The notes under the pieces: model-generated
What the model was told of the DNA's origin: nothing
The model's database searches: none
The model's input: the letters and a program-made list of their open reading frames with translations, nothing else
Position numbers and translations under genes: made by a program
Part shown: one piece after another, positions 14,001 to 45,463 of the stretch
How positions within the stretch are numbered: position 1 is the stretch's first letter
Layout: every line of letters starts with the position of its first letter
Source: Steinernema hermaphroditum
Taxonomy: Eukaryota; Nematoda; Chromadorea; Rhabditida; Steinernematidae
Direction of reading: 5' to 3'
Assembly (NCBI GenBank): GCA_030435675.1
Contig: CM059622.1
Span: 1-64,000, forward strand
DNA: 64,000 bases

Positions 14001-14383
14001 TATGGCCCTTTTCTTTTCCAGGCTCTGGGCAACCTAGAAAGTGGTTTCCTTGCCCCAGCCGATGAGATTAGCATACGGTATTATTCGGAAATCACATTCA
14101 GAATTTCCCGAAATTCGCCGATTTCCGTCCAAAACCGTCATTTTCTTTGCCCCCTTCAACCAGATCGTATCTTTGGTATATAACGTCTAACTATGGCCCT
14201 TTTCTTTTCCAGGCTCTGGGCAACCAAGAAAGTGGTTTACTTGCCCCAGCAGATGAGATTAGCATACGGTAGAATTCGGAATTCACATTCAGAATTTCCC
14301 GAAATTCGCCGATTTCCGTCCAAAAGCGTTATTTTCTTTGCCCCCTTCAACCAGATCGTATCTTTGGTATATAATGTCTAACT

Positions 14384-22619: not shown

Positions 22620-23830
22620 CCTAGAAAGTGGTTTACATGCTCCAGCCAATGAGATCAGCATACGGTAGAATTCGGAATTCACATTCAGAATTTCCGAAAT
22701 TCGCCGATTTCCGTCCAAAAGCGTTATTTTCTTTGCCCCCTTCAAACAGATCGTATCTTTGGTATATAATGTCTAACTATGGCCCTTTTCTTTTCCAGGC
22801 TCTGGGCAACCTAGAAAGTGGTTTACTTGCCCCAGCAGATGAGATTATCATACGGTAGAATTCGGAAATCACATTCAGAATTTCCGAAATTCGCCGATTT
22901 CCGTCCAAAACCGTCATTTTCTTTGCCCCCTTCAACCAGATCGTATCTTTGGTATATAATGTCTAACTATGGCCCTTTTCTTTTCCAGGCTCTGGTCAAC
23001 CTAGAAAGTGGTTTACTTGCCCCAGCCGATGAGATTAGCATACGGTAGATTTCGGAATTCACATTCAGAATTTCCGAAATTCGCCGATTTCCGCCCAAAG
23101 CCGTCATTTTCTTTGCCCCCTTGCACCAGATCGTATCTTTGGTATATAACGTCTAACTATGGCCCTTTTCTTTTCCAGGCTGTGGGCAACCTAGAAAGTG
23201 GTTTACTTGCCCCAGCCGATGAGATTAGCATACGGTAGATTTCGGAATTCACATTCAGAATTTCCGAAATTCGCCGATTTCCGCCCAAAGCCGTCATTTT
23301 CTTTGCCCCCTTGCACCAGATCGTATCTTTGGTATATAACGTCTAACTATGGCCCTTTTCTTTTCCAGGCTGTGGGCAACCTAGAAAGTGGTTTACTTGC
23401 CCCAGCCGATGAGATTAGCATACGGTAGATTTCGGAATTCACATTCAGAATTTCCGAAATTCGCCGATTTCCGCCCAAAGCCGTCATTTTCTTTGCCCCC
23501 TTGCACCAGATCGTATCTTTGGTATATAATGTCTAACTATGGCCCTCTTCTTTTCCAGGCTGTGGGCAACCTAGAAAGTGGTTTACATGCTCCAGCCGAT
23601 GAGATCAGCATACGGTAGAATTCGGAATTCACATTCAGAATTTCCGAAATTCGCCGATTTCCATCCAAAGCCGTCATTTACTTTACCACCTTCAACCAGA
23701 TCGTATCTTTGGTATATAATGTCTAACTATGGCCCTTTTCTTTTCCAGGCTCTGGGCAACCTAGAAAGTGGTTTACTTGCCCCAGCAGATGAGATTATCA
23801 TACGGTAGAATTCGGAATTCACATTCAGAA
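22620..23830. repeat. Block of 190-bp monomers at the right array edge
   Basis: Six successive units are spaced 190 bp apart because TTTCCCGAAATTC has become TTTCCGAAATTC. Three of them (starting near 23008, 23198 and 23388) are nearly identical and share CCGCCCAAAGCC and TTGCACCAG. This points to very recent local amplification near the edge. Confidence 0.7.
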
Positions 23831-24102
23831 TTTCCCGAAATTCGCCGATTTCCGTCCAAAAGCGTTATTTTCTTTGCCCCCTTCAACCAGATCGTATCTT
23901 TGGTATATAACGTCTAACTATGGCCCTTTTCTATTCTAGGCTCTATCGATGTGCAAGTACCTGTGATTGTTTTTCGGTAATTAATTGTCTGCAACATGAT
24001 AATTTAACGTACATGTTATTCTCGCTAGAACAGCATAGACCAAGCAGTCAATGGTGGCCGGTGGCTTACCAGCCTTTCGGATTGCTGTAAGGCGATGCAC
24101 CC

Positions 24103-25805: not shown

Positions 25806-28799
25806 TCAATCGTTATCTATGAGCTGTCTTGCATACACAGTCTTGCTAAATTGCTTCATTGGAATTCTCATAAGCGACTGCAGAGAGTTTTCCAACATTA
25901 TGAGCAGCATGCCTTCCACGCCCAAGGTGTCCGCCATGTCGTTGATTAGGTTTATCGGTACGACCAACTTCCCGGTTGCGTCGGTCGCGCGTCTCTTTAG
26001 CATGTTGAAAACTTTCTTTCGGGCCCAGAAAGATGACAGTAGAAGATACAATACATGCAACATCTGTATGACAGATGCTGACACGTTGTAAACTACGAAT
26101 ATTGTCAGCGCGATTTCGTACGCGCGCGCGTTACTTAGATAACAGCGGACAGGCTCACATACTACGTACTTCTCTTGTGTCTGCAACAAAGGTGTGTGTG
26201 AACGACCAGAAATTGAAGAACGAACCAGAGCGTTGCAGTAGACGTCCCTCGGGAAGTATCCCTTTGGTGATTGTGCGAGCAGAAGCTCTTCCTTCACGTT
26301 CGTGAGCCATGAGAAATTCATGGGATGGGAGTAGATGAGCTTGTCTTTGGACCCAGGCAGCAACTCGCCACGAACTGGCGATATGCAGTGCGTTATGAGG
26401 AATATCTAAATTTACACAACAGTGATAGCTTTTAAGGGATGCACCGAGTAAGCTCCCCCTGTAGTGACACTTTAATCAAAAGGTAAAGGTAAAAAGGCAA
26501 GTTAAAAATCGGTGAAATACAGCGCAAAATCGATTATATTTGACCCTAAGTATATGTTACCGTCTTTGAAACCTTCTGTGTGAAAATATTGGGTTGGGGC
26601 AGTGAAAATGGAACATTTGGTAAACATCCTTTAATTTCGCAGAGCTCGCCAAAAACAGCCAAATACGTACTCTGCTTTCTCAAAATACGTAAGCGACTGT
26701 TGCCACGCGGGATTCCTTTGTGCACGCGACTTCCAACCACACACGGTGATACAATCACCACTACAACGACTAATACACGCGAGCTAACACAGTAGCCTCG
26801 CAACAGCAACTGGCGCAAACTCGCAACTTTCAACGCCGGACAAAACACAAGGAAAAGATCCGCGACACGCGATCTTCCTTTACTACAACAACTGGAATCC
26901 GACGGATCTCCAGGAATGCAACAAAACCGAGCTGGTACAAGAACTTACCTACGCTGCGGTAACAACAATAAATGACAACACAAATACAGAATTCGGATCA
27001 CACGATCCAAAAACAACAGGTCCGCGCGGAACTCTGAAGAAGACCGCTGCTCTCCAGCCTCTTACTGATGAACTTTGCTGCTCTCGTTGTTTGCAGCCCA
27101 CTGTCTTGTCTAGATAATGTTCCGGAACCTTCTGCGTCTCGTAGACATGTTATTCGACGCGTAGACGTCTGGTTCAGAATTGGCGCGGGATTCAAATTCT
27201 GCTGAAATCCGGGAAATCCCGAACGCGCTGAAAGGACGCGACCGCTTGTCGCGACAACCTCTCACCCTACATTATGATATGCCACTTGTCCATTGCATTA
27301 CTCTTGATTTTGCACCTCTATTCTATCTTGACGGTCATTTTTTAGCTCGAGATGGCGAAATGTGAAGTGATATACAAACTGCCTACATATAGTAGTAATT
27401 GTGTTATGGACGATGACTGCCTTCAATCACGTACATCGTAGTGTCTAACCTACCGAATGCACCTATTACTGTGTTCGTCATATATCGTACATAAGCTAAT
27501 CTCAAAATGATGGCCTTTTCGGATCACCATGTTCTGTTATCTCTAATGTATCGAATTGGTTAAGTACTGTAACACAAAATGGGAACATGCAGCAGGTAGC
27601 TATCACTCACGGCTATCATACCCATATAACGGCTCCACAAGCTCACTTCTACTTTACAGAAATAGACGCCAAGTGTTGAAAAGTTCGCACTTCAGGAATG
27701 GTGTTTTAAACCGCGCATTTTTAAGTTGACCATCAGAATGGCTCTCCACTTTCAGCTGAGAGATTACTTTTTTCTGTTTATCTATCACTCTCTTAGGTCT
27801 GTCTAACCACCATCTTTGCTCGTCCACAATTGACGAAATCAGAGGAAATCACTCTGAATAAGACAAAGAGGTCGAAATTGGGATCAAAACATTTTGGCTA
27901 AGGTTATTCAGGCAAATGGTGAATACCTTGAAGTGGTTGATACAATGCAAATAAACAATCATTACAAAAGTGTCCCATTTTCAGTGCCCCAACACAATAC
28001 ATACCTGCATCAAGAGGAGCGGAACAGCCAATGCAAGTTTCCCTCCGACATAGAGTAAAAAAGCGGAAACGAATCGCTTTTCCGGCATGAAAGCGTCGTG
28101 AAGGCGTTCTCCGATATCCTGCAGCACATTCGCGGTCGTATCAGACGGCACATCTGTCTTTGTGTCCATGTACTTTTGAAGGTGATCAAATACATTAGCT
28201 GTAATTCGATAGTAACATTTAGCTTCGCATACACCTACCACAGCGCTTTGGGAATAAAAATTTCCATACTAGCATAGATACCACACTTAATATGCTGAGG
28301 CCAAGGAAGCACACGTCAAGATGCTGAAAAGGGCTTTTTATTTTGAGGCCAACAGGAGTTGCTGACCATATAGCCTGCAACAAACCAGCGATCTCCAAAG
28401 CTGTCGTTTTCGCACGTTTCGGTTCCCCGAAGTCGAATGTTTTCCATACCGGGAACGTAGAACAACGCATAATTGTTTTGCAGACACTTCTGTCGCGTTA
28501 AGTCGTTCGATGATTGGGGGTAGACACTTGAAAACGAGCAGCTTAATGGGTGCGTTCCCCATCTCTAAATTCAAATCCGCACTTTTTTTAATTGATTGAA
28601 CGATGAATTGATAAATGACCCTTTTTTCAGATACACATTGAATTATGTGCCTTCCACTTACAGTATCCATAACGAATAGGGCGAGGGCGAAGTTTATCAA
28701 GGCGCTCCAATACGGCAAACAATCGGACAGGTGTAGCGTTACGGGGAGTAGAAACTTGCCATAGAAGATCTTACTAATCAGGCTTATCAAGGTCGTCAT
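25806..28799 (-). CDS. Divergent innexin (gap-junction channel subunit)
   Basis: Innexins are four-pass membrane proteins that form invertebrate gap junctions. Five exons join in phase: 28799-28662, 28564-28450, 28400-28239, 28198-28005 and 26405-25806, giving about 402 residues, a usual innexin length. The order is an N-terminal tail, TM1 at about residues 32-45, a first extracellular loop with two cysteines (C55, and C73 in KCLQNNYALFYVP), TM2 at about 110-132, TM3 at about 183-200, a second loop starting GYFPRDVYC (C260) with later cysteines at C286 and C291, and TM4 at about 297-325. The FPR..xC pattern and the YVVCEP segment match the innexin second loop. An in-frame 45-nt segment after CNAL may be another intron. 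Intron 4 is long (1.6 kb). An acceptor-like AACTTCAG lies 23 nt before the ATG. Sequence conservation is low, so orthology to a named innexin is not claimed. Confidence 0.72.
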
Positions 28800-31505
28800 C
28801 GTTGTTTAAGTTCGCACTATCTGAAGTTTGCTGAATTATTAAGTTGGCGATCTCCAGAACCACCCGCGAAAAGGCCTCGAATCCGATGGAGTGATGAAAT
28901 CGCGAAGAAACTGGGAACCCGAAGATGGCAGCACAGAGGGCGACAGGAAGCCAGACAGAGATAGATAAATGCGGGGTCAGACACTATGTAACATAATTGA
29001 TTCCCCAGATAAATTCGTAAATAAAAAATAAATAAGAGCTTTGAACACGAAACACATGGAAATAGCCGTTGATTCGGGAACATAAATTGTGTAGTTGTGG
29101 AAAGCTATTGAAAAGGTCGATCGGTGCGGAAAATAGTGCTGGTAATCAGATGGCGCAACGAGCAAAAAATTCAACTAGAGTCAACATGGAGTTCTCATTA
29201 GCAACGGCAAGAACAGCGGTTTGTCTGCCATATAGCTTATCGCGGTCAATATAGCATTTTTTTGCAGAAAAAAAAGCTTCAAAAGCTATGCGGAAGTCGA
29301 CATTTGGGTCACAACTTCTTTAAGTCCAAACCATAAAAAATCTTTGAGAAACGCATTCATTCTAAGCGTAGAAGTGAAGATAACTCGTAAATGATAATGG
29401 CGAATTTCTTTTGGATTAGGCCTCTTCGTCGCCCCATGTCCACCTGGCCGGATCGCTGCGTTCCTTTTGGCACACAAGAAAGACCAGCTCGTGTATGGCG
29501 AATCGCTTTATGCACTAATTGTTGTTTCAAGAAGCATTTGTTCAATAATGGTAAGGACTTACGGTGTTTGAGGGGAGATGATGAACACCGATTAGCGCAT
29601 AAGTGTTCTCATCTGCTCCTCAAATATCGGATTTCGTATTCGCGTCGCGCACATGTTACTGCGCCGTCTCAACACTGTGCATTATGAGTGCAAGCATGTG
29701 TTGCGACCTTTGAGGCCTGGCAGAGAAAGAGAGAAGAGGGAGTGAGGTACGATGGAAATAGACGATTAACCTTAGCAAGAAGGATATTGTATTTTTGCAC
29801 TAAGACAGGAAAGAACCGGGTATATCATAAGCAAGTAAATGTCATTACTCTGGTCCACATTCAAAGCTCTTCCCTTCGTCGTATGCACAGGATTGCCCTG
29901 AAGCCCTATCGTAACCGGGCTCACCCCGATCGACACATAGCACCTTTTTCCTTTTCAAACATTTATATTTATGGTGACAAAAACGGCTCGCTGGAAGACA
30001 AGACATCTCACTACACAAGATGAATACAGCAACGAGAATAGACATAACGGAACATTCAGAAAACTGTACGAAACAGATGTTTATTCATACGATAGAATCC
30101 AGTATCAAAAAGGTTTGCGTAAATAAAGCACACGATAAACACGTTCTTTGTGTTGCAATCCGCATTACATCTGAGCGCGGCGGCGACAAATACATTGTTT
30201 ACAGTAACGAGAGATGCGTCTTATGGTGTCGGCATAACTCAAAAGCGCGAGATCAGTCGGCATTTGTGATCGCTTCATGTTGTGGTATCCTTTCGCTCTT
30301 AACGCGTTCCTTATTTATTTACAGCATCGAGACGCTTCTAATAATCACATTTACAGCGCTTCAAGAACTAAATGTATTTCAATTCGTGTATTTCGATAGT
30401 GTATTTCGATAAAATGCCCAAAATATGTCCAATTTCTGCTATCTGTTTCGTGAACTTTCGCTTACCAGAAAAAGAGTCGGTTTTCTATTTTTCGTCTATT
30501 TTCTTACTGTGTAACCCTGGGATCAGATTGGTTAGTGCGTTCGTACGAGTGCTAGATTGTGTCCCCAGACTGTTTCTTCTGATATCCCTCCTGCATGTTC
30601 TCCATTTTCTTCGAACTATTTCATGTTCATGATCCCCGATCTACGACCTGGCGTAGTTAAACTTTCTCGCTGATTTCACTAATTTTAACCAAGCATACAG
30701 GCAAAATGGGCGACCCCCTCAAAATTATTGCTCATTTTCAGCTGAGACGTAGATACTTATTGGACATGTAGGCTCACAGCTCTATCTGAGGACTACTTGG
30801 GCGGGAGACCACTTGTAACATCAGCAACTAAAAAGAGCCAAAGTTTGCAATCAGGTGAAAAACGGGCGGAAATGGGATGTTTCGAACCGAAACCTATCTT
30901 GTTCTGCGGTGGAGCGGCCAGGCTTCTCCTCAGGAAGTGCTTTGGGGCTACGTAGTTAAACAGTGAATACTTCCATTGATATATGCATCTTTATAATTAG
31001 AAACGTGCTATTAGAAAGAGCGACATTTCTAATGTACCAACCCAAATCATTGGGTTGCAAAAGTATTTCCTTTTTATTGGATTGAGTCGGTGAAAATTTC
31101 GCATTTTTTGTAATGAAGTTTTTCATGATATATTGGGTTGTTAAGTTGGAAACCGGTCGCTTGCAACGATTGTTTGTCAACGTAAATCTTATATATTTCA
31201 ATCAAAGTATTTACCAATAACAAGTAATAAGTAATATAAATGTTTCGTTCTTTTCGTTTTAGTTTTATCCGGAACAGTTTCGTTCTTTTCGTTTTAGCGT
31301 CTTTTAAGTTTTAAACAGCACAATTCAAAAACTTAATTTGATATCCATATAAATTCAAAAAATAGGGCTTCTCAGGACGGCGCAGGTCGAGCGGTGGAGA
31401 TGAGCGTCTTGGAGAGACGTGGTTCGGCTTAGCGCACAGCGGACGGAGCGGGAACCCATACGGCTAGTACTTGTTAAACAACGAACTAAAAAGCAACATT
31501 TCCAG
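28800..31505. other. Intergenic, between innexin and recombinase gene
   Basis: No gene recognised in 2.7 kb. Several 60-130 codon frames on both strands lack motifs or a convincing exon structure. Near 31040-31140 there are mariner-like termini (see that entry). The last bases, CATTTCCAG directly before the ATG at 31506, look like a splice or trans-splice acceptor for the downstream gene. Confidence 0.4.
31037..31140. repeat. Possible mariner terminal remnants
   Basis: CAACCCAAATCATTGGGTTG is a short head-to-head pair of TTGGGTTG motifs. It is followed by CAAAAGTATTTCC and, 80 bp on, by TATTGGGTTG. The TTGGGTTG core followed by an A-rich AGTATT resembles mariner ends. No transposase is visible, so this is a weak call. 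Confidence 0.25.
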
Positions 31506-34500
31506 ATGTACGCTAACAAACAAGTCGTTGCGAACGCTTTGAAAGGTAGTGGCACAATGGAAAGGTCCACAGCGGCTGCAACCCACTCATCTAGAGCGAC
31601 TGCTTTTTCGGGGGGAAATCTCCGGGGGACGATCCTAGGAACGTTTGGTCTAAGTCAGTACGGCGCCCAGCACAACGCACAGTCGTCTACGAGATATGGG
31701 AATCTATCCACGACAACGTGTGACGGGCCAAATCGCTCACATCTGGCAAATAAAATAGCCGTGATGAACAGCGATCCGATTAGCAAGACGACGAAAAAAC
31801 GAGATGCAGTCCAATCTGCAGTAAGTCACAAACGAACCTTCTCTAACGTCACTGGCTATCTTACAGAGCAGCGCCAGGACGGTTTCTGAAGAACGGAAAA
31901 CGGCTATTGAAATCATTGACGAGAGAGACACTCAGGAAATAGTTAGGCTTAACCAGCTGCGCTTGAAGGTAAGTATACTGAAGAGCAGTAGTAGTGTGAA
32001 CTTCTAAAGTCCTTACTTGAAATTACATACACTTCGAAGCGATTCTCGTATCCGTGACTCTTTTGTCATTTTTCTCAGCTACTCTTTCTCAGTCCGAAAA
32101 ATTAGGTATAAATAGATCTGGCGGACCTTTTTCGAGGTTCTCCGACCGTTAACATGCTTTAACTTTTAAGCAATGCACTGTTCGATGGGAAGTCTCCGAG
32201 AACCGCTCGACCTGGTCGCACTTCAGCTATGCGCAATTCTTACGTAAGGTTGAAAATGGATTAAATAGATGAACTGCTTCTGTTCTAGAGCTTCCTGTGG
32301 CAGAGCTCAGGCGCTACGCGCAAACGGACAACATCCTCTTACCGGAAGCGGGCAGCCTCATTCTGTACGATCTCGCAGGCTACCGTAACTCTAACAAAGA
32401 GCGCCGACGAATGTCAACGAAGAAGCTGTTGAAGTCGTTGCGCAACGATGGCTATGAATGGAAGGAAAAGCCTGTGTACACTCGAAAGCAGCAGTATGCG
32501 CTGTGGGTGCGGCACACGCCATTCAACCACAAGCGCGATTACTTCAAGTAAGCGTGTATTTCCAAAAATCCACTATAAAAACGTAATATAGACGTCATGA
32601 ATATAGCTTTGACGGCCAGAACTGGGTGCTGTTCGATTACAGAAGCAATAAGCCAACGGTGGATCGAATTGCTCTCACTCCAACGTAAGTTTTAACGGAA
32701 CAAATTTGACGGATTCCTACCCCGATCGTATAGTGGCAACGAGGATTATGTTGCCCGTAAAAAGCCAGTAAACTCTTAAGTGAAATTTGTGTGTTTAACT
32801 TAAATAGACACTCGTCGTCAAAGTGACTTAACTTTCCAACTTAACAACAAATTATCCTTCAAATTGTTACAATATACAATATGTTGCAATATGTTACAAT
32901 GTAAATGAATGTGCTTGATTTTAAAGCGATCAACAATCCGACGACGATAGTGGAGTCCCAGCTGCACAGTCCCTGGTTTGCTACTCGCCGTAAGTTCAAA
33001 TGGGGCGAACTCTCATTCAAAGGCAAATTTAGAGGTCATGATTTGCTCGACAGCGTCGAATCTACAGTAGAGAAGCGAGTTAGGAGATCTGACGCCCACG
33101 AGTTAGACCTTTCTCGTAGGACACCGGTCAAGCAGCGGAGACTCTCTGAGTTGGGTAGTATTGATTCAGAAGTAGCACCGTTGACGGTCGATGAAGTAGC
33201 TGACACGGTAACGCCTTTTAGTCTTTCCATCAAAGTTTTTATTACAACTAACAAGGGAGGTGCTCGAAGTGAGAAAACTTCAACTTGGTTTAAACTTACA
33301 CTGCTAAAACTGTGGACATTAAGTGCAGTAACGTATGCGGCGTCGGCAGCATCTTATAAAAGAAGTTCTAAAAATACGTTAAAATATGGGGGTTAGGTGA
33401 TACAGTTTGATGGGACAGATTTTCACAAGAGTCACTTGCAGGCTTCTTTCTCCTCTCTCCCCTCCGCTTTTTCTAATAACATTTCCTCTATTTCTGATGC
33501 TGCGGCCTTAGCAGGTGCACAGCGGCGACAAGCGTCCACACACCCCTTATGGCCCCGACCACTACGGTATCACTGTGTGTGGTTGTTGTGCAACTTTCGT
33601 AAATGGCGGTTTTCGTGTGATTGAAAGGGGATAAAAGTATTAACCGAGATTGTAAGGTTAAGAAAACGCTATGCCGTCGACGAAGATCAAACAAGACGAA
33701 AAAAAGCGCGGTAGTACGGCCTTACTATCTTCTTCAATATTTTCAACCCCATTTGTGATGCCGTAGCAGTACTCCGGCGGCTTCAACAGTACTACAGGGT
33801 GACACAAAAGTTCTGTAACGACGGTTTCAATTGCTCATTATTTGTTATTTTTTGAATCGGTCGCGTTTTCTCGTCGTGATATTCCAATTCAGCATCTATT
33901 GCTGCTCACTAACCTTTTCATACTTTTTGCGTTACTTTGACACTCGGTCTTGCAAGGGTGTTTCCATTAGGTGCGTTTTTCGACCATAGTGATCATTTTC
34001 CCGGTTTTACAGAATCCGTCCCAAACTATCACAGAAGCAGGGAGGTGGTTTTTTTTCATCTGCGTAGTTTTTGGCGAGCCTTTCTTGAGGATCTGGCGGT
34101 GATTCTGCGGACTGTGATTCGGATACACCGTAAAAAAAACCGTTCCATCTGTCAAGACGACATTGCCCACACGTCAACGAACAATCACAGTCCAAAATTT
34201 TCCGAAACGTTTGGAGGCCTGCATTGCAGCAAAATGTGGTCATTTCGAACTGAATCTACGATGTAATATGTAGTTTTTCCTGCTCTGTCATGTGGTAAAT
34301 CTCGTCTGTCTGATTTCATTCACGCTTTCGAGATACGCTCGGTTTTTAGCGTTACAGAACTTTTGTGTCACCCTGTATACGACCCAACCCCTATCTTTTT
34401 GCCTATTTTTAGATCCTTTCTCATAAGATGCTTCCAGTGCCGCATATGTCGCTGCACTTAACGTCCACTGTTCTACTAGTGTACAAAGTTTAAGCCAAAT

Positions 34501-37500
34501 CGGCGTTTATCACTTCAAGCACCTCCGCTATGTTAGTTATTTAAACTAACATTGTTAAGGATTCGGACTACAATGAAGAGGTGCTCACGAGAGCTTCTCA
34601 CGTGGAACAACACGATGGGCCCAATGCCCAACACTTCCTGTGGTGTAGCAAGTGCCAAAAAGTGGTCACTCGCAAATTTGCTGAACATGTAAAGGGGCAC
34701 GGACAAGATGCAAACGAGTTGGAAGACAAGAACTACTACAAGAAGCTAGCAATCCAAAGAAGCAAACTGCTGGCGGTGGCAAGCGTTGGAAGCTACAAAG
34801 AAGTCATAGAGTCCGTGCTTCAAAGAGCAGGATACCATGGACAAGAACACAATCGGCTTAGGATGGAGCTGGCGAGCTCTTTAGAAGCACGCGGTATCAT
34901 CCTTAAAAATAAGGTACGATTGTCGGTTTGTGCATATTTTACTGGTTTGCATATGTCTAGCCCAAGCTATGCCAGAGTGGGCGGACCGAAAGTGATTCAA
35001 CACGTTACGTGGAAGCGATCACGCGGAAGAGCAAATCTCGTGAGTTTCGGGGCCTATCAATTGATTGCATTTAAAATGGTGTCCACTCTAAGCTGGGATA
35101 TTCTTTTTCAGTACGGACATAGGCCGTAGTTAGGGTTGTCGAATAAGGGGCCTAGACAAACCCCGGCTTGGCTTAGGCTCCGGCTTAGGACTATGCCTGT
35201 TGATTTTATGCGAGCCCGAAGGGCGAGCCCTGTTGTCTTGGCAGCTTCGCTGATGTCCTAGTATCTTAGTAAAGATACACACAAGGTCTACAAGAGGTTT
35301 CAAGCAGTCTGCATTGAGTAACCTGCAGAACCTCTTACGTCCAGCTTTGTCTAGACAAAAATCTTACTCTGTCCGTATTCACAATTTTCAGTGCAGACTA
35401 ACTTCACCGAGATTTACAGACTTATGCTGTCTTCATACACAAATGCTAATCGGTCTATCCCGTTTCCGGTGTGCGCGTTTTTCTCACGCGCGCTTTTTTA
35501 CCCTAATCAGCAACCCAAAGTAATTTTACCCTAATCTACCCATTCCGAGAGTGACGATGTCGACAGAAAAAATTTCGAAAGCAAGGGTTTCATGACAGAA
35601 GAAACAGATGCCTACAGGGAAGGATTACGTTCGATAACTCGAGCTGGTTTCCGTCACAAAAAAGAGGACTGAGGGTGGCGTTGAACCGATCCTTTAATTA
35701 CATGATTATAGATAATACTCATTCGTTATTCAAACAACAGAACAAACCTTGGAGTGTACATAGCCGGTTCGCTGCTACTATGCCTTTGGGTGAGACTTGT
35801 AAAAACGATTTTATGACCACCAATCTTGCCGCTGGGGAAGATGTTGAGCTTATGGGGCTGTGAAGTTGCTGTGTGAATGGCTCTCAGAGGTGTTTGACAG
35901 GAGACAGCATTGATCAGGTAGATCGAGCTACGACAACCTTGGTGTTCCAAACCCTTTGTGATTCGGGACTATGAGTGTCTAAAAGATTTAAAAAATAACA
36001 AATATAGTCGACTAGCAAAGACACAAATCCCAAACTTTATCTTGTGTCAAACAGTGTCAAAGACATAATATTTTCTAATACCATCCACTTTCTTGTCATT
36101 GTAGAAGCCGAGAGAACGCTGCAGAAGCAAGGTCGCTTGTGGCGCATTGTTCCAGAAGCCCACGACCTGTTCGACCAGTATAGGCGCCACCAAAATGCGG
36201 TGGGACGAAGAGAAGGGGGATCCGCTCAATACGAGAGCTACGTACTAAAAGTGTACGGATTCCTGTTCCACGAGTGGTTCATGGCGTACCCACATTGTGA
36301 CGGTAATCATCTTTCAACAGCCTTATCACACAATGTTGTTTAGCCCCAAGAGAACTCACGGCGGAATTTGTCGTGGACCATGCCAATGAAGTCCTGGACT
36401 ACCTGGAGCTTCTTGCTCATCTAGGTATGCGTCCTTTTTTATTTTGTAGTGTGTTTGCTTTAGGTGTGTCGCATTCCCAAATGGTACAGACGACAAAGGC
36501 AGTAAAAGACTTCTTTAAGTTCATCGAAGCAACCCATCGTGAGAGCTTCGGAACACTGGAGGGTTACCAGGAATTCGCAGAGGTCGTCAAAAAAGCGAGT
36601 CAGTTTCCGGCAGCGATCCCTGTAGTGCAGCGACGGTCTCTTAAAGGTAAAACATTATTTGATATATTCACCATTCGGATGCGATTTTTTCCTCATTTCG
36701 CCTCTATTTCCTTAAAATAGAAATGAGCTCATAGAGTCGTTATGTTGCCATAGTAGCTATGAGTGTCGCCCACATGCTGCATGTCCCCACTGTTTGCTAC
36801 AGCACTTAAACATTGCGAAAGGTTAGCGTTAACAGAACATGGTGATAGAACAAGAACACATGATGTATGACGAACACAGCGATAGAATTTTCAAATTTTC
36901 AAACTGATTTCAAGATTCTCAATTTTCAAACCAGAGAGATTTTCAATGCATCAACCCGATTTGTGGGTTTGTGCATATGTTTGTTCAAAGACACCATGTT
37001 TCGCAACTTTAGCATAAGAATGACATAGTTGTCCTCGAAAACGTGTCCCTTCTTGGGCATATGTTGGAATTACGCGATCCGACCGATCGCCACTAGCACA
37101 AGCGAAAGAACTTCCATTAAACTTCGACATGTTCATTTGTGCGATTACGGAAATGATGTTACCCCTCCCCCCACGAGACACCTTATAAGCAGTGCTGGAT
37201 ATTACAGACGTCGGCTATGCCGAATATTTCAAACTTGTTTTCGACTATCGGACAACAAAGTTCGTCGACGACCTTCAGCAGAAGTTGGAGGAGCCCACCT
37301 TCGTGCCTAAGCAGGCAGACTACAACACAATTCTCGCGTATGTCATTAATGTATAGTTAGAAGTTGAAACGGGTCGTTTTCAGGACGGTAGTATACACTA
37401 TCATCGTGAAGAATTTGGGGGCACGAAACGAAGCCTTCTATAAAATAAGGCGTGGAGAGATGGATATGTCCAAGGAAGGCTGGGTGGAGACGAAGAGCTC

Positions 37501-40500
37501 CTTCGCTGAGTGCAAGCTCTTGAAGACGGTGCTCTTTGAAGGACCCAAAAGCACCAACTTCAGCCACCACTGCCTGGTCTTCAGTAAGCCGATGTGGAGC
37601 CAGCTGGAACTCTACGCCGCAGCTCGTGATCGGTATGGTCACGCTGAAACGAAGTTCGACTCCCTCATTTTAGGTTATTTCCACTTTCGAGAAAGCCGGA
37701 GATGCACGACAGCCAGCAACCGTTCTTCGTGAACAGTGCGGGACGTCGGTTGCTTTCGTCTACAGTGACGCAACTCATGAAAAGTGCGTGTACTTTCAAA
37801 GGAGCTGAATTCAAGGCAACAATGAACGACGTTAGGCACGCAGCTGCCTCCGAGGAGGTCTGCCAAAACATCATGAAGCGTAAGTCGATTTCTTGCGGGC
37901 AGAAAATTTGAATTGCATATGTAATGGAGCGGTGCAAACTCTGTAGGTGGGACCTACAGAGTTTGCATTAACTGCAGGTAAAGGTTTTTCTTGCTCAAAG
38001 GTTAGGTGGTACCTACAGAGTTCCGTCTCAAAAGGGAAAGGTGCAGTTTGCACAAAAAAACCAATCAAAAATTGAATCACCACGAATATAAATAATCGTA
38101 TTCCGGAATAAACTATGAAGTGGCTAATACCGTCGTATAAATCTAGAAGTTACAAACACAGCCACTGAAATTTTGAAATTGTTTTAAATTTAAGTTTAAA
38201 CTACTGCGTTCCGTCTCAATGGATATCACTATAATTATTTTTCGTGTCATCATGAAAAATTAACGCGGCTGCGCGCGAATTCGCACCAGTGAGCCCTGCG
38301 GGTGGCAAGAGTGGTGCTCACGCAAATGGCCGAAGTTGGACAAAAAAACTATAAATACACGAAAGGCCAAACGGCCTTTTGGATTTGAAGAACACCAATA
38401 ATCCTGCGGGCGGCAAGATTATTTGTAACTGACGGCACTGACAATCCAGACGCTCAGAGAGCGATCGGAAGGACCTGGATCTTATGATACTTTTTGATAT
38501 ACGCGAGGCCTAGCACCTTTCATCGCCTTCCATTGCGACCTATGTGAAACCAAAATGAATTGGGTTCCATATATTGTCTACACTGTTTAAACTGCGATAA
38601 TCTAAAGTTCGTAGACTTACTTAGGTTGTTTGCTCACAAGCCGCATAGTTAAAGGGAAATGAACCGTTTTAGCGGACCTTCCTGGAGCAACGTTAGCTGG
38701 TCATGGGCTCGATACCAGAAGGAAGATCTACGCCGACAAACTGAGGGAAATCGCCCGTACTGGATTCATAGCGGTGCACGAGAAATTGGAAAAACTCGAT
38801 GGAGCGCCGAAAAAGAAGCAAGCCATAGCGAGCGAACAACGTGAGCTAATTGAAAATCACCATAATGGATGTATCTATTTTTAGAGCCAAAACGCAGCAT
38901 TGGTATCATTAAAAGCATCGCACCTCGCTGGATCAAGAGGGACTACAAAGTGCAACCATCGACTAAAGATGCCGTTTCGAAGGAAGCGTCTCTCTTAAGG
39001 CGGTTATCCGTCAACGATTCATTCGGTATAGACATCTTAGAATCGTGAACAATTTTGATTCAAGTGTATTCAGAAGACGACAGTGCATCAGATCTTACTT
39101 CCTTTCACGAAGTTGGGCCTGTGGACTTAAGTGACAGTTTTGCTGGTAAGCTCACGTTCTATGTGCACAAAAAATTTTATCATTAGACAGGTGGTGGTAG
39201 CAAAGTCCGGTATTTGTCGTTTTATGGAGCTCCCGAATTTAATAGCTTAGTCCTGACCACCTTCTCTAAATATGTTCAGAAATATCTGTGATTTCTCGCA
39301 GCCTTTTGTTTACACGATTTTATAAAAAATTCTATTTTTTGAAGGTAGCTGTGATAGCAATATTTCTAAACGTCTCACTTTCCCGGAGCAAATTCATCTT
39401 CCTGAGAAGAAAATGAATGCTGGAAAGTAAAATGCTCCCTGTGAAAATAATAAAGAATCCCATTGTAGGCAGCATAGCAACATCGTATCTTCCTGTTCCT
39501 TGTACAATTCCTGCTGTTAATGACGATTACGTTGGTAAGCTCCCTTTTGATTTTCCTATACCGCTGAATTCCCAAAGCGTAATCACATTCTCCAGTATTG
39601 CTGAGACGTTTGAGTGCTGGACATTTGAGTACGTTTGAGTACCAGCCACTTCTGCGCGGTTTCGATAATTCAACCTGCGAAAATCTGCTGAACTCGAAGT
39701 GCGTAGCTCAATTGTAATCCAATCGATGACATCTACGTAAAGTATCCGAGACTCAAACGTCTCAGCAACTACATTATCACTGCATAATATTCTTCAGAAC
39801 TCGACAGCCTGTTGTCGTTCAAATCCTGCATAGAATACGATGAATCAGAGGAGAGCTTTAAAGGTAAGTCCGTCAGAAACTCATCATTTACTGAAATCCG
39901 ACAAAACTTAAGGAATCATAACCTTTCAATTTGAACCTGATACACAGAGAAAGATAGTAAATTGTGTCACGCTATTTCAAAGCCTTCTTCAACCTACAAA
40001 CAGCATGAGAAATCTTCATACTCATATCATTCGAAAGAAGGGTTGTATGCAAGACTGAAATTGAAATATTCTCATTGAAAGACGAACCAAATTCATACAC
40101 AGAAATGACATTTAACTTATGGACAGCCTATATTTCCTTCACATTTTTTCCAACCAGCTGATGCGAAAATATGTTCTTATTATCTTCTTATTATCATATT
40201 ATCATCATATGTTCTGAAATGATCAATACCAATTTCAGAAGCAGAAATCAGTAAGAGTGCAGCTCCCAGAAAAAAACCGGATCTGACGAAGTACCTTGAA
40301 CCGGAGGGTAAGTTGATGTCAAGTTTGCCTATATGGTCTACAAAAATCGCCCATTTTAGACTTGGCGTCCCTAGCTCCAGCATTGCCATACAGGAAATCG
40401 TTTGAAGTTTTCCCGACACTGAATTGGGAAATAGAGCGCGACCTGCTCTCTGGAGGAGCCAATGGTTACATGGAAAACAGCGGTATCATGTCGCTGCTTT

Positions 40501-42400
40501 CCCGTATTCTGCCAGGAGAGCTGGTGATAGGATGGGACAGTGTGGGTGAAGCGATATACGGTACGCTGGAGACGTTGCCCTCCAGTCGGCGGTTCACATT
40601 CATTGTGCTTTACACCAAAGAACCGCAGCAGCACTGGGCTCTCGCGGTCCATGATATGAGAGAGCCGAAGGTAGTCAGTTATTATGACTCCGTCTATGAG
40701 GAACCCACCTCAAGTATGAATGACTACATTGAGAAAGTGGTGGCCGAACTCCGTCTCGGCTCTTCGCGAATTGTCCTGGTCGACCATGCTAACTTTCGCC
40801 AGCAGAACGGCTATGATTGTGGTGTCTACGCGATGCTCGTCGCGCAAAGATTGGTGGCTGGGCAAGATGTGGTTATCAGGCCTGAAGATGCCGAACGATT
40901 TAGAGCAGAGGCCTTAAAGATTACGAGACAAGAGATGTTTGCTGAAATCAATCAGCAAATGGCGAACCACAACGCCAAGGCCTGTTCAGCGTACCCCAGC
41001 GAGCCCCTCTCCGATCGCGACATCTGGAGCAGACGCACCAATCGGCCGGTGCAGTCGTGGGATTGGTTGGAAGTCATGCCGCGGCGGCTAGGCGTCGGCC
41101 GAGGAATACGCGCAAAGTGCAACATTCCTAAAGGCGTCATAGTCTGCGACTACTTGTGAGTATATTTTGTTGTTAGACAAATGAAAGGCTCTAAAGACGC
41201 CTACTTCCCCCTATCTCTAGCAAACTGTTTGACCTCCTCTAGTCGTGGCATTTTCAGTGGGTACGCAAAGGACCTCCCTGACTATAGCCGTTGTATGATG
41301 GAACTGGAAGCAACGGACAAAGACTTGTACAACATCATCCAGTCCTACGCCCTTGACCGAAATCACCCTAACAACAAGGATCGTGTGGATGTGTTGCTCG
41401 CGCATAACTTGAAATACGATTCAGTAATTGGATTGGGGCGACTAATGAACCACACACCGCACCACGGTTGTGAGAATGTAACGCCCAAAAGACGGTTCCT
41501 ACGTCTAAAAGGCGAGAAGCACTCGGGACCAATCATTGTCTTCAAGACGTGCAGAAAGATCAAAGTAGGTGGTGTCGACTTTAGTTTTAAAACGGACTCT
41601 CTTTTGCTGCTGATCGCAAAATCCTAGGAGTGAAATTGCTACAGGTTTCCCACACTGATTTGAGATTTTCGTTCAGGCTGGAGAGGAATTGCTATGGGGC
41701 TATGGTAAGAATTTTAACAAATTCGCCTGGTCAAAGATATGCCCCAAATGCTCGCCAAGTCCGGTTGACCGAAACGAAGAAAAGGGCGAAAGCTACAGGG
41801 TCATGGAGGAAAGTAGTTACAAGCCCTCTGCCAAGGAACTCACAATTCGGGCCATCGAATCGGTTCGAGTCACGGACTCGTCCTCGATCGCACTGTACGG
41901 CTTGGGATCAAAAATAGTAGGGAGCGGTTGGAATGATTGGGTTCATACTGATCTGTTTAGGAGAAAATTCTACCAGCTGAGCAGCTTGCCACGCTGCGTA
42001 CCCTGGATCCAGTCGAGGAATTGAGCAAGCTATGCGAAGAAGGAGTGCCGACGGCACTCATTTGCTGCTATGAGAAGAATAAGCGGCGCATAGTCCAGTT
42101 TTTCTTCCCGGGAAGGGGGACCAACCCAAAAACGGCCCCATTCCATATCTACAACGACGGCATCGGAGCACTGGTTCGCTAACGCGTCTATATTCTTCGG
42201 CGCAATAATTCATTTAGGTGGGCAACAATGAAAAGTACGGCAGACCAAAAGAGTGCTGCACGATTGAAATCCAGCAGCTCGACGAATCACCCGTCAGGGA
42301 AGTGAACCTGGCACAGCTGAGAAGGGAGATGTCGAGTGGAATGGACATAGATATGATCACCCGCATACTTTGGAACTGCTCTACAGATATTATACCTTAA
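31506..42400 (+). CDS. Tyrosine recombinase-Ulp1-SET fusion protein
   Basis: I join 26 exons, all GT-AG and all in phase: 31506-31820, 31867-31968, 32291-32547, 32607-32684, 32927-32989, 33033-33207, 34560-34913, 35550-35646, 36105-36302, 36344-36424, 36464-36646, 37208-37337, 37384-37632, 37674-37879, 38673-38840, 38885-39025, 39065-39145, 39345-39426, 39473-39534, 39798-39863, 40239-40307, 40360-41155, 41258-41564, 41677-41916, 41961-42173 and 42218-42400. The product is about 1631 residues. In order it has an unrecognised basic N-terminal region (1-330), a C2H2-like finger (359-377), a tyrosine recombinase (about 480-870), a Ser/Asp/Lys-rich linker, a Ulp1-type cysteine protease (about 1060-1240), a KMT5A-like SET domain (about 1294-1445) and an unrecognised C-terminal tail. 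The start is the first in-frame ATG, directly after CATTTCCAG. Least certain are exon 8, the three linker exons and the last two junctions. The gene could be the coding region of a mobile element or a domesticated copy. Two adjacent genes remain possible if the linker exons are wrong, but Ulp1 and the start of SET share one exon. Confidence 0.8.
33795..34375 (-). mobile_element. Deleted Tc1/mariner-type element in intron 6
   Basis: Perfect 26-bp inverted repeats, starting CAGGGTGACACAAAAGTTCT at the left end, bound a 581-bp element flanked by TA on both sides, the Tc1/mariner target. On the minus strand an open stretch (34170-33967) reads like the middle of a transposase. It includes FTVYPNHSPQNHR and SVIVWDGFCKTGK, which resemble the Tc1 pattern ending sVmVWgGi..tGk. 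The rest of the transposase is missing or interrupted by stops, so the copy is non-autonomous. It lies wholly inside an intron of the recombinase gene. Confidence 0.85.
34644..34700 (+). other. C2H2-like zinc finger of the fusion protein
   Basis: Exon 7 encodes WCSKCQKVVTRKFAEHVKGH, a C-x2-C-x10-H-x3-H arrangement. It lies upstream of the recombinase and could contribute DNA or protein binding. The spacing between the second Cys and the first His is two residues shorter than in the classical finger, so the fold is probable rather than certain. Confidence 0.6.
35131..35145. repeat. Solo end of a small foldback repeat
   Basis: TAGGGTTGTCGAATA in intron 7 matches the terminal sequence of the foldback element at 56886-56974. 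No partner arm was found nearby. Confidence 0.3.
36105..38840 (+). other. Tyrosine recombinase domain (exons 9-15)
   Basis: The N-terminal half has the helical core-binding pattern (YESYVLKVYGFLFHEWF, then a second helical stretch VQTTKAVKDFFKFIE). The catalytic half shows VVYTIIVKNLGARNEAFYKI (Arg I, about residue 692), MNDVRHAAAS (Arg II and the following His, 815-816) and AGHGLDTRRKIY (His 840, Tyr 849). The Tyr is nine residues after the last His, exactly as in canonical LGHSS...Y boxes. The usual His of the H-x-x-R box is Asn here. DNA strand exchange through a 3'-phosphotyrosine is the known chemistry of the family. The substrate is unknown. Confidence 0.85.
37934..37966. repeat. Perfect hairpin in intron 14
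   Basis: Two 15-nt arms, GCAAACTCTGTAGGT and its exact complement, flank a 3-nt loop (GGG). A partial third copy of the arm (GGTACCTACAGAGTT) follows at about 38009-38023. Intron 14 (37880-38672) also holds two CCTGCGGG-GGCAAGA repeats. The function is unknown. Confidence 0.8.
40420..40940 (+). other. Ulp1/C48 cysteine protease domain
   Basis: Within one exon the catalytic elements appear in family order: QQHWALAVHDM (His, about residue 1144), VVSYYDSVYE (Asp, about 1162), and FRQQNGYDCGVYAM (oxyanion-hole Gln, then Cys at about 1206). This is the signature of Ulp1/SENP deSUMOylases and related proteases. C48 proteases are also known from several groups of eukaryotic mobile elements. The expected catalytic residues are all present, so activity is plausible. 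The substrate (SUMO, another ubiquitin-like protein or the polyprotein itself) cannot be told from sequence. Confidence 0.9.
41082..41752 (+). other. KMT5A(SETD8)-like SET domain
   Basis: The exons read RRLGVGRGIRAKCNIPKG, then DYFGYA, then IGLGRLMNHTPHHGCENV, then IIVFKTCRKIKAGEELLWGY, followed by CPKC. These match the SET sequence of start, the N-H cofactor motif (1382-1383), the E-E-L-L-x-x-Y motif and a Cys-rich tail. LGRLMNH and AGEELL are most like KMT5A, which monomethylates histone H4 lysine 20. Two introns (102 and 112 nt) interrupt the domain. Methyltransferase activity is inferred, not shown. The aromatic dyad of KMT5A (YDY) reads WGY here. Confidence 0.82.
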
Positions 42401-42544: not shown

Positions 42545-43330
42545 TTGACAACTTCTCCGGCTAACGGCCTTTCTGATTGATACACCATAGCCCTGAGAAG
42601 CCCTGCGACATCTGCTAGCCCTGAGACATCCGCTTCGGGGAGAAGTGTCCGTGGTCGAGAAGTTGCGTCTACCCTTATCACAACGCTTATGACAAGCGCG
42701 AATAGTCCTTCGCTTGAGGCACCTTCGACCAAATAAAGATCATTCGCCTCATTGTTGTAATATCCTCAATAGCTTCACACTTTATCCATTTCGCATCTTC
42801 ATTGCTTTTGTTGTCCGATCAGCAGATCAACCGTCAGAACCAGGAAAGTCTCGATAATTTTGTTCTGGAGAGTTTCCTTCAGTAAACGAAAAGATTTCTC
42901 ATCGCCTCATAGACCGGATTATGGTATCCACTACGGTACCCACTTATGGCAGGAATATATTAGTCACTTTTCGTAAATCATTACGAATTTTCCATTTTCA
43001 GTGATCTACTGTAACTGGCCTCTACAGGCTCTACTGTAACAGCACCTCATCTTCGGAGCTTTAGTGGATTCCTTATGTAATTTATCAAGACCGGATTCTA
43101 AAGAACTTGTGGTAAAAGGCTGACCCAAAAAGAACAAATTGATCCCTTCCGAAGGTGGATTTCCAGTGTTTCTTTGTTGGTCATCCTACTGCTCCTCAAA
43201 GTGATGCTACGACGCCAGTTCGTCGGCTGAGCAATTTCGAAATTTGCAGCAAAATGCCTTCCAGAATGTCCTGATTTTCCTTTTCTTCCTCTTTCCACGC
43301 CTACGGTGTCCTCAACTAATCTTGAAATCC

Positions 43331-43337
43331 GTTTCAG
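43331..43337 (+). promoter_or_regulatory. Likely trans-splice acceptor of the innexin
   Basis: CCGTTTCAG ends 13 nt upstream of the ATG at 43351, as at many nematode genes that receive a spliced leader. An upstream untranslated exon is the alternative. Confidence 0.5.
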
Positions 43338-43350
43338 ATCATCAACCTTC

Positions 43351-44579
43351 ATGATGCTTGCCGGATCCACGGTTTTCCCGCTTATCGGATTCTTGGTAGA
43401 CCCTCTCGACGACCTCATCGATCGCCTCAACAACAGCCTGACCTTTGGAATACTGATGACACTTGCTGCTCTAGCCTTTGGACAAGTACAATTCGGCCAC
43501 CAAATGACATGCAAGCTGGACGGTACACCGGCCACAGTTCGTAAGTAGTGCATTCCGCATTTAAACAGCTACATAAGTATTTTTATAGAGTCACATGTGG
43601 ACCATTATCAGCAGCGGTGCTACAATGAAGGCCTCTATAATTTGGCTGAAGATGGTTTGCCGGATTTGAGCCGCGGAAGGATGGCATTCCATATGTGGTA
43701 CCCATACGTCTACCTGGTCCTCGCACTCCTGAGCGTTGCTCCCAAGCTCCTGTGGAAAGTGATGCTATACTTCCATGGATCGTATTTTCGAACAGTGATC
43801 CTGGAAGTTGAGAAGCTCAGCCCGTTGAGAGGAGAAGACTTCGAGAAAGAAGTCGGAAAATGCGCCGAACTGATCCTGGACACTATGACAATGAACGCGG
43901 AAAGGTCGGTTTTTTGTCCAACAGAACTTTCTCAGTACAGTCTCTCTTCAGATTTGTGAAAATCGTAGGCACCTGGACGTACATCGCTACGAAGTGGCTC
44001 TACGTTTGTACTCTAGCCCTTCAATTGTGCGCGACTTCACTCCTCCTCGAACAAGGATTTCCGCTCAAAGGTCACTGCACTCTGGAATTCACAAGGGTAA
44101 TACAATACCTTATTTGTACGTCACTCAATGCTCCTTTTTCAGCCTCTATTTGTTGTGTCTATGGAGTGCACGCTTCCACAGAACGGCTTTTATCGTTTCG
44201 GATTCACGTTTTGTCATATCTGGTTATCCTTACTCGCTGCCATCACAATCGTGTCCACACTGACGGCTACAAGCAACCTCCTTCTTCCTGTCCTCCGCCG
44301 TAGAACGTTCAAAAAATTGCTAATGGTAAGGCGACGGGCATTAGCATCGCTTTTCTGTTGTACTCAATGCCATAGCATCGCTTTCCAACATATAGCATCG
44401 CTTTTTAGATTCCCGCAGTCACAATTGACAAGAATTGCTACGTGATGCGAAAGCTCGGCACTGACGGACTTCTCCTTCTCACCCTCATAAGAGAGCACTG
44501 CGGTCCCATCGTAACAGCAGCAATTACAAAGGAGATTTGCATGAAAAGCATGGGTCACATCCCTGGAGACCTTCGATGA
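43351..44579 (+). CDS. Divergent innexin, short
   Basis: Five exons join in phase: 43351-43540, 43589-43904, 43952-44096, 44143-44325 and 44409-44579, giving 334 residues, shorter than most innexins. TM1 lies at about residues 29-47. The first loop has C54 and C74. TM2 (about 101-119) ends in APKLLWK, like the family's P..xW. TM3 is at about 178-200. The second loop reads GFPLKGHC (C211) and later MECTLPQN (C226). TM4 is at about 237-257. The C-terminal DGLLLLTLIREHCGP matches the innexin DGvfllrlI..n.g segment. The family forms gap junctions and hemichannels in the plasma membrane. It lies on the opposite strand and on the other side of the recombinase gene from the first innexin. The short cytoplasmic tail is notable. 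Confidence 0.75.
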
Positions 44580-45463
44580 AGCACCGGATTCATCACTTCG
44601 ACGCCCGCGCAAACTAATAGAAACATTGCATTCTATCGAGATAAGTCTGCTCCACCGAAATCAGAAGAAAATCAGCGACTATGGTGTGATTTGTGTCTCT
44701 TTGTTCATTTATAAGACGTCCTGCACGGCGCAAGGTTGTTGTTATGTTATTGTTTTGTTGTTTTGTTTGAACATAAAGAGCAGTTGCTGATCCGTAGTCA
44801 GTAATCGAAATTGCATCTGTGGGACAGTGTTTGTATTTCTGCAAGGCTTGCCGGAGCCTCTTAGCTGAGAACCGGCTCCCAGAAGGCCTGGAGCCACCAG
44901 GGAGCCATAGTTCCAACGTCTTGCCAAGAAGACCGTCACTGCCTCTCGACTCCACCCGCGCCGCCAGAGAAGCCGAAGAACGCTGCAAAATCTGCGCCGC
45001 CAGATGCTCCGATGGTTCCCGGTTCGCCTTTTTCAATGGTTTTTTTTGAAGGTCCCAATAGCATTTCGAGTAGGGAATTCCAGCTCCTTGTGCATTTTTA
45101 ACAGTCTCTTAGAAGCACATACAAAATATCAATCTTACAAGTCGATCTTTTTCTAGAGCGTTCAGACTCCACTTTTCATTTTCCACAATTTCACCAATTT
45201 TCTCTGTTCTAACTTCATTCTTGAGTTCATCTCGTGACAGTTGCGTCTATGCGTATGTGTATTTTCGCTTATTGCGACTATCTTTTATTCATCTTTCTTC
45301 TACTTGCCTCTGTGACAGAAAAAAAAATATATATATCAATATTATCTATCGAATCTCAAATCTCACCCATAAATTGTAAGTTAATCAACAAATGGAAGCG
45401 AACAATCACCCGCAATCGAAAGATAATACATTTGGTGTACGGAGACAGCTGTTGATTGGCGAA
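44580..45463. other. Intergenic, between innexin and NFAT-like gene
   Basis: No gene supported. A 140-codon minus frame (44614-45036) overlaps a dispersed repeat and lacks motifs. The rest is AT-rich with simple ATATAT runs near 45327. Confidence 0.4.
44981..45026 (-). repeat. Dispersed repeat segment, copy 1
   Basis: Read on the minus strand, this segment (GAACCGGGAACCATCGGAGC and onward to TTTTGCAGCG) matches the plus strand at 52902-52947 with few differences. The full repeat length was not determined. Confidence 0.5.

Follow-up and report, generated by a model that had tools for sequence, protein, structure and literature searches.

A two-paralogue nematode gene predicted to join a tyrosine-recombinase-like part, a Ulp1 protease and a SET domain in one protein

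Introduction

Does a single nematode gene combine the machinery of a DNA recombinase with a SUMO protease and a protein methyltransferase, and if so, is it a mobile element or a gene of its host? The question is raised by a locus in the window analysed here, a stretch of 64,000 nucleotides at the very start of the chromosome-sized contig C2 (17.7 Mb) in the Steinernema hermaphroditum genome (90.6 Mb in 60 contigs). An initial annotation, made from the sequence alone, had described the locus as a C2H2-like finger, a tyrosine recombinase, a Ulp1/C48 protease and a KMT5A-like SET domain in one frame, and had proposed an element or its domesticated descendant. The features of the locus are listed in Table 1.

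Table 1. Features of the locus and its surroundings, in window coordinates.
Feature	Position	Strand	Remarks
Upstream neighbour gene	25809..28805	-	30-51% aa per piece vs gene beside copy 2
Whole gene	31506..42400	+	predicted single reading frame, N-terminal module to stop
N-terminal module	32171..33207	+	39/84 aa same in copy 2, main exon 32289-32547
MITE-like insertion	33793..34377		585 bp, 28-bp perfect terminal inverted repeats
C2H2-like finger exon	34560..34913	+	66/118 aa identical in copy 2; tail conserved
Presumed core-binding domain (recombinase N-terminal part)	36105..37337	+	four exons; dN 0.34-0.81
Tyrosine-recombinase-like catalytic part	37384..38840	+	R630, N750-x2-R753, G-H778, Y787
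Linker exons, recombinase to Ulp1	38885..40307	+	all phase 1 in both copies
Ulp1/C48 peptidase core	40623..40913	+	PF02902 8e-6 at residues 1028-1124
SET domain	41097..41706	+	residues 1186-1317; introns 41156-41257, 41565-41676
C-terminal extension after SET	41707..42400	+	27/70 and 24/58 aa kept in copy 2, last two exons
Downstream neighbour gene, innexin-like	43231..44600	+	66% nt, 47-67% aa per piece vs gene beside copy 2

Results

One reading frame spans all of the parts

The recombinase-like part, the Ulp1 core and the SET domain are encoded by one reading frame. A protein database search with the spliced model returned a single match, QR680_007296 (P0001), a protein of 1518 residues with 94% identity that NCBI names 'hypothetical protein' and UniRef 'SET domain-containing pro...', and for which C48 and SET domains are precomputed. 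Mapped back onto the DNA, this protein occupies positions 31764-42397 in 25 consecutive pieces that account for 1513 of its 1518 residues, and a stop codon follows. Residue numbers given here are those of QR680_007296. The gene has approximately 24 introns, and the Ulp1 core and the first strands of the SET domain lie together in one exon (40360-41155).

We compared the database model with a second gene model, our own chain of 25 exons joined at GT-AG junctions. Some junctions of our chains (for example 33207, 36646, 39025 and 12841) were not those scored highest by the script and were chosen in the light of the other copy of the gene or of the frame. The backbone and the catalytic exons of the two models match, and they differ at several other places. 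Our chain has a phase conflict where 34913 is joined to 36105, and the database model places an exon there (34961-35038). Exons 32734-32756 and 39469-39534 occur in our chain and are absent from the database model, which in turn has an intron within our exon 32927-33207 and reads 32928-32990 in a different frame. Two acceptors are also placed differently (32607 and 39065 in our chain, with database pieces beginning at 32593 and 39073), as is the start: the database model begins later than our chain, and an upstream in-frame ATG is present at 31506, in the same open exon as the database start and immediately 3' of ...ttccag. Because of these disagreements the exon set of the N-terminal third is provisional. 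The initial reading of 26 exons in one phase-consistent frame, beginning at the ATG at 31506, comes near to these models: the ordered frame stands, while the exact set of exons differs between models.

A second copy shares the architecture and the splice junctions

The same genome carries a second copy of the gene on the minus strand at C1:17754701-17761220. Its parts follow the order seen in the first copy: N-terminal module, finger, recombinase part, Ulp1, SET and C-terminal extension. The recombinase-like part and the Ulp1-SET part, which in the initial annotation were to be sought side by side elsewhere, therefore adjoin in this paralogue also. Amino acid identity between the copies, measured for 14 exon blocks, ranges from 29% (12/42, exon 37208-37337) to 71% (48/68, exon 37674-37879). 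All 16 pairs of splice junctions that were compared are GT-AG and of equal phase in both copies, and four of these lie between the recombinase-like part and Ulp1. The first and second junctions are outside this count, as are the junctions around 32734-32756 and 34913 and the one from 39863 to 40239, where copy 2 carries one additional exon; a seventeenth pair (37879 to 38673) was inspected separately and also matches.

These junctions bear on whether two adjacent genes, a recombinase and a Ulp1-SET gene, have simply been merged by annotation. The connection does span introns of several hundred bases, and the first two linker exons have no clear sequence match in copy 2. The other two linker exons do match, with 79% identity over 24 aa for exon 39798-39863 and 38% over 26 aa for exon 40239-40307, the linker junctions are in phase 1 in both copies, and the database model is a single protein. 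The four phase-matched junctions and the two matching linker exons give the fusion support beyond annotation, and we regard a merger of two genes as highly improbable.

Copy 2 differs from copy 1 at its N-terminus, where an extra C48 domain (PF02902, 6.7e-8, 33.1 bits) lies upstream of the N-terminal module. This domain keeps the H, D, Q and C motifs, and its second half is open in frame into the N-terminal module. Neither the comparison of the copies nor a genome search found anything similar in copy 1. The architecture of copy 2 is therefore Ulp1, N-terminal module, finger, recombinase-like part, Ulp1 and SET.

Only these two copies were found among the best candidates scored in the 90.6 Mb genome. 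A query spanning the finger and the recombinase part gave 12 genome matches and a Ulp1-SET query gave six, all of them in copy 1 or copy 2 among the best candidates scored. Queries made from the recombinase core and the N-terminal part of copy 2, run against the genome at E 10, returned the two loci and two weak Ulp1-part matches.

The two copies also share their neighbours. The genes on either side have homologues beside copy 2, with order and orientation common to both places, which marks out a duplicated block of approximately 18 kb and indicates that the gene was copied as a segment. The downstream neighbour matches innexin PF00876 at 3.2e-4 (20.4 bits), below the cut-off of 25; no Pfam family was found for the piece of the upstream neighbour that was tested. 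Published completeness figures for S. hermaphroditum (43/45/1/11, that is, 45% complete-and-duplicated; PMC12629237) agree with wide duplication in this genome.

The Ulp1 and SET domains are complete in their catalytic residues

Both C-terminal enzyme domains named by the initial annotation are confirmed at family level. The C48/Ulp1 family scores 26.3 bits in the whole protein against a cut-off of 20.7, a genome profile search also marks 40620-40913, and the residues H1031, D1049, Q1088 and C1093 are all in place. The SET domain matches PF00856 at 2.3e-9 (38.1 bits, cut-off 22.4) and keeps N1269 and H1270 of the NH motif and the catalytic tyrosine, Y1316. Its likeness to KMT5A was not upheld. 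In a PDB sequence search with the SET domain alone, the best match is EHMT2 (8.8e-6), and KMT5A follows at only 0.06; EHMT1 and EHMT2 are the nearest solved SET domains. A specificity for H4K20me1 is consequently unsupported, since it rested solely on that resemblance.

The N-terminal module and the finger are conserved between the copies

The N-terminal module has a dN of 0.49 between the copies. Its pattern recalls what we take to be that of the CG-1 (CAMTA) DNA-binding domain. This candidate gained no support: CG-1 (PF03859) gave no Pfam call in either copy, with matches at chance level, and the locus is absent from the genome's PF03859 list at E 10. A PDB sequence search with the module gave chance matches only. 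The neighbouring finger exon encodes C303, C306, H317 and H321 (approximately 34644-34700) in the pattern C-x2-C-x10-H-x3-H. The description as a C2H2-like finger is therefore accurate as a pattern, although no Pfam zinc-finger family was called. The MITE-like insertion sits in the intron before the finger exon, outside the coding parts of the gene.

The middle part is probably a tyrosine recombinase

The catalytic part is distributed over exons 37384-37632, 37674-37879 and 38673-38840, and the stretch that precedes it is presumed from its position to be the core-binding domain of the recombinase. Both copies have R630, R753, H778 and Y787, and both have N750 where the H-x-x-R motif normally begins with H. 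The spacing of nine residues from H778 to Y787 is that of XerD.

Family searches gave little sign of this relationship. PF00589 matched copy 1 at 0.025 for one ORF and at 0.06 for the joined part, both under the cut-off, and the Pfam scan matched it neither to the recombinase part of copy 2 nor to either short piece; in the whole of QR680_007296 it is absent at E 10. An NCBIfam scan of the recombinase part returned nothing, a PHROGs scan gave nothing beyond a match at 0.15 between one of its two queries and an unknown family, and a PDB search with the recombinase profile gave chance matches only.

A profile comparison gave a statistically modest signal. We used hhalign to align a profile of the two copies with a profile of seven recombinases (lambda Int, FimB, FimE, XerC, XerD and, from the same genome, two recombinases of DIRS type). 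The alignment covered 103 columns and scored 25.9, with a P of 0.0038 and a stated probability of only 8.8%. In this alignment NDVRHAAAS is set against HELRSLSAR and LAGH...IY against LLGH...QY, so that R753, the G-H pair and the tyrosine fall in register; R630 lies outside the aligned stretch. All 300 column shuffles scored below this value, with a maximum of 25.8; in a first set of 60 shuffles the maximum was 20.8. The reversed sequence scored 14.2, all 16 unrelated E. coli proteins, used as single sequences, scored 18.3 or lower, and the seven true recombinases scored 43-225 when each was left out in turn. Run against each of the seven recombinases singly, hhalign gave no signal (scores of 11-16).

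The selection pattern points in the same direction. We compared the copies over 14 exon blocks, leaving out the linker and the first exons; the copy-2 block of the Y787 exon begins 9 bases upstream of an acceptor found later. Synonymous sites are saturated (pS 0.77, with 174 of 254 fourfold sites differing), and dN is 0.41 overall. It is lowest, at 0.20, in the exon of R753 (37674-37879), compared with 0.34 in the Ulp1 block, 0.34-0.39 in the other SET blocks and up to 0.81 in the remaining recombinase exons. The recombinase motif region is therefore the most strongly constrained. Judged from sequence, this constraint argues for a function of the motif region, in DNA binding or in catalysis.

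The middle part could instead be unrelated to tyrosine recombinases, its motif match being due to chance; the gene would then be a zinc-finger Ulp1-SET regulator. The sub-threshold Pfam match in copy 1 and its absence from copy 2, the lack of PF00589 in the whole protein at E 10, and the negative NCBIfam, PDB and single-recombinase hhalign results would all fit this explanation, as would the one shuffle in 300 that came within 0.1 of the observed score. It has to contend with the register of R753, G-H and Y over 103 columns, the XerD-like spacing of nine between H and Y, the low scores of the 16 E. coli proteins taken as single sequences, and motif residues that are identical in both copies and lie in the exon of lowest dN. 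We consider an unrelated domain unlikely, and the assignment as a tyrosine recombinase well favoured. The initial call is thus kept as probable, on the strength of the shuffles and the residues in register, with the qualification that Pfam places copy 1 below its cut-off and does not detect copy 2.

Relatives are confined to the two copies in the searches made

The protein database search with the whole spliced model, which depends on exact words and limits candidate length, returned QR680_007296 alone. Word-based protein searches that scored approximately 8000 best candidates gave QR680_007296 alone for a recombinase plus Ulp1-SET query, and nothing for an alignment of the two recombinase parts. 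The database protein of copy 2 itself was also missing from the protein searches. Given the need for shared exact words, the length limits and the approximately 8000 candidates scored, the absence of relatives is unproven. With no orthologue outside the species in these word-limited searches, the known conservation is confined to the two copies. Viral contigs contained no relatives of the recombinase part, the Ulp1-SET part or the N-terminal module. Eleven distinct rhizobial loci, found in genome contigs, match the Ulp1 part alone and were judged generic.

Within the S. hermaphroditum genome, a C48 search gave 18 rows, two of which are copies 1 and 2; the other 16 are covered by 14 ten-kb stretches. 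Only two of these other loci match the Ulp1 of copy 1 at E 0.05, both weakly, namely L043 (24% aa, E 0.017) and L038 (23%, 0.033), and none matches copy 2 at that threshold. PF00589 matches 64 places in the genome. One pairing of C48 with a recombinase, at C3:7.30 Mb (L032), was set aside as an apparent DIRS-type element that has an independent C48 match next to it: its ORFs encode a CCHC knuckle and a reverse-transcriptase-like protein, both recognised by motif, and a recombinase. The Pfam search found no reverse transcriptase family in QR680_007296. DUF3504 (PF12012) is absent from QR680_007296 at E 10, and a genome search for it found none, but the controls of that search were silent too.

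The copies resemble a duplicated host gene rather than a mobile element

Two pairs of repeats of at least 25 bp lie between 28000 and 46000, a MITE-like one and an imperfect one of 29 bp. None of at least 25 bp resembles an element end, a floor that lies above the length of Crypton end repeats. Dispersed copies with ends of their own, such as a Crypton would leave, were not seen among the best candidates scored: both copies lie inside one duplicated gene block, which points to segmental duplication of a resident gene and not to two insertions.

We weighed these results against a low-copy mobile element of Crypton type, in which Ulp1 and SET would be accessories that ease integration or dodge silencing. 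Such an element would account for the retained recombinase residues and the strong constraint on the R753 exon. Precedents exist in the C48 proteases of oomycete Cryptons (PMC3212892) and in the Ulp1 domains of Ginger and Mutator transposases (PMC2836005), and word-limited protein searches found no orthologue in other species, as an element might lead one to expect. It accords poorly with two copies only, among the best candidates scored, that were duplicated along with their neighbours, with approximately 24 introns, with saturated divergence alongside shared intron phases, and with a repeat content between 28000 and 46000 that amounts, at 25 bp or more, to the MITE pair and the imperfect 29-bp pair. 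We therefore rate a mobile element as improbable. More likely than transposition, on these sequences, is that a host gene under selection was duplicated long ago as part of a segment. The first copy may originally have arrived as an element. Of the two possibilities offered initially, the domesticated descendant fits the two copies, their shared block and the conserved protein; the mobile element is not favoured.

A host gene could also encode an active recombinase that cuts and joins DNA at fixed sites, perhaps to maintain satellites or to carry out programmed rearrangement, while Ulp1 and SET prepare the chromatin. The catalytic residues are kept under constraint, and a satellite array of 23.5 kb at the contig end is approximately 8 kb away from the locus. 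Against this, copy 2 is 0.47 Mb from the end of its contig. In a published table of programmed elimination the cells for Steinernema are empty, which by the definition of that paper means lack of data, and S. hermaphroditum is not among the rows concerned (PMC11555361). We consider this role very unlikely.

Discussion

One reading frame, a common order of parts, two copies, conserved parts and retained catalytic residues are the observations from which an explanation has to start. The one that we prefer, by a modest preponderance of the evidence, is a host gene with two paralogues whose product would combine a domesticated protein of tyrosine-recombinase type with a SUMO protease of Ulp1 type and a SET methyltransferase, and would set local chromatin. 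Beyond the observations, we infer the recombinase identity, the DNA targeting, the substrates and the chromatin role.

The mechanism proposed for this host gene draws on analogy with SETMAR, Crypton-derived genes, the Ulp1 domains of transposases and the C48 proteases of Cryptons. The N-terminal module, finger and recombinase part would bind particular DNA. Ulp1 would then strip SUMO, or a relative of SUMO, from proteins bound at the chosen DNA, and the SET domain would methylate a nearby histone or other lysine. Removal of SUMO and lysine methylation together would set the local chromatin state. A bolder version, which we regard as improbable, is that the protein is still a catalytic site-specific recombinase; DNA cutting and joining, SUMO removal and histone marking would then be coupled in one chain, in a selected host enzyme with a second paralogue bearing two SUMO proteases.

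If the recombinase fold is true, the gene would place a domesticated recombinase in the same chain as chromatin enzymes. With a SUMO protease and a methylase in one chain, SUMO removal and lysine methylation at recombinase sites would be testable in a laboratory nematode. A literature search of open-licence PMC papers found no protein that joins a recombinase, Ulp1 and SET, in agreement with the initial statement that no family of this architecture was known. We judge the architecture to be new among the papers searched, and chromatin regulators derived from domesticated recombinases or transposases to be known already.

Several known systems share one or more of these parts. In the same genome, DIRS/PAT-type elements (L032, L045 and L049) carry a tyrosine recombinase, as the gene described here probably does. 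They differ in having a strong PF00589 match and many copies, and taken singly they give no hhalign signal with the nematode part; reverse transcriptase, absent from QR680_007296, is present in L032 as an RT-like ORF recognised by motif. Ginger1 and Mutator resemble the nematode gene in joining Ulp1 to a DNA-integrating enzyme, but their enzymes are not tyrosine recombinases, the Ginger1 families are mostly multicopy, and SET is not mentioned in the passages describing them (PMC2836005). CryptonF and CryptonS of oomycetes have a tyrosine recombinase and a protease of Ulp1 type (C48). They are transposons, the protease of some CryptonS is a further protein of the element, and the passages on them do not mention SET (PMC3212892).

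Host genes derived from Cryptons provide a parallel for a domesticated tyrosine recombinase within a regulator. They include ZMYM2/3/4, QRICH1, KCTD1, KIAA1958 and WOC, and many of them regulate transcription and bear additional DNA-binding domains (PMC3212892). ZMYM2 acts within co-repressor and SUMO-dependent complexes (PMC10629813). These genes carry DUF3504, which is undetected in the nematode protein, and the passages that describe them include neither a SUMO protease nor SET.

A parallel for the SET domain is SETMAR (Metnase), the primate SET-mariner fusion, in which a SET methylase is joined to a transposon-derived DNA-binding enzyme (PMC6326780). There the DNA-binding domain of the transposase brings the methylase to remnants of transposon ends (PMC6326780). 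SETMAR has a mariner transposase and its SET domain comes first, and the abstract makes no mention of Ulp1 (PMC6326780). The nematode gene, in contrast, has a recombinase-like part, one or two Ulp1 domains, a SET domain that comes last, and two paralogues.

Differences between the two gene copies and their surroundings

The paralogue on contig C1 (copy 2) carries an extra N-terminal Ulp1 domain (table below), for which no counterpart was found in the gene in the window (copy 1). This Ulp1 part is matched at G000:C2:8719999-8720403 (minus; 9.3e-4, 25% identity), inside a 1122-aa open frame that is possibly a transposon protein. Downstream of copy 1, about 2.1 kb (window 45077-47232) are 96-98% identical to the corresponding place adjoining copy 2, whereas the genes preceding this stretch share only 30-71% amino acid identity between the two places. 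This stretch would be a recent conversion, duplication or repeat. The near-identical stretch contains an ORF (46710-47066, minus) that may resemble a Rel/NFAT IPT domain.

Coordinates of the extra domain and of two mobile-element-like features
Feature	Location	Strand	Description
Extra N-terminal Ulp1 domain of copy 2	G000:C1:17762164-17762797	minus	
MITE-like element	window 33793-34377		within intron of copy 1; 28-bp perfect terminal inverted repeats
DIRS/PAT-type element	L032 5632-9637 (G000:C3:7.30 Mb)		long open frames

Repeats in the window and elsewhere in the genome

Near the start of contig C2, a satellite array with a 191-bp unit occupies window 453-23944. It comprises 102 copies at 96% match across 4473-23944, and a more diverged stretch at 453-4443. 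The terminal inverted repeats of the intronic MITE-like element begin with TACAGGGTGACACAAAAG.

The ORFs of the L032 element are CCHC-knuckle, reverse-transcriptase-like and tyrosine recombinase, the first two being presumptive labels assigned by motif. Repeats with a DIRS-type recombinase ORF also occur on contigs C9, C24 and C27 (L045-L052). On C9 they are spaced about 34.6 kb apart, and the ORF takes two forms; in that of L045, the recombinase stretch lies downstream of, and is partly continuous with, a BEL-type integrase-like ORF. For L045-L052, the DIRS-type and BEL-type labels of these ORFs are presumptive.
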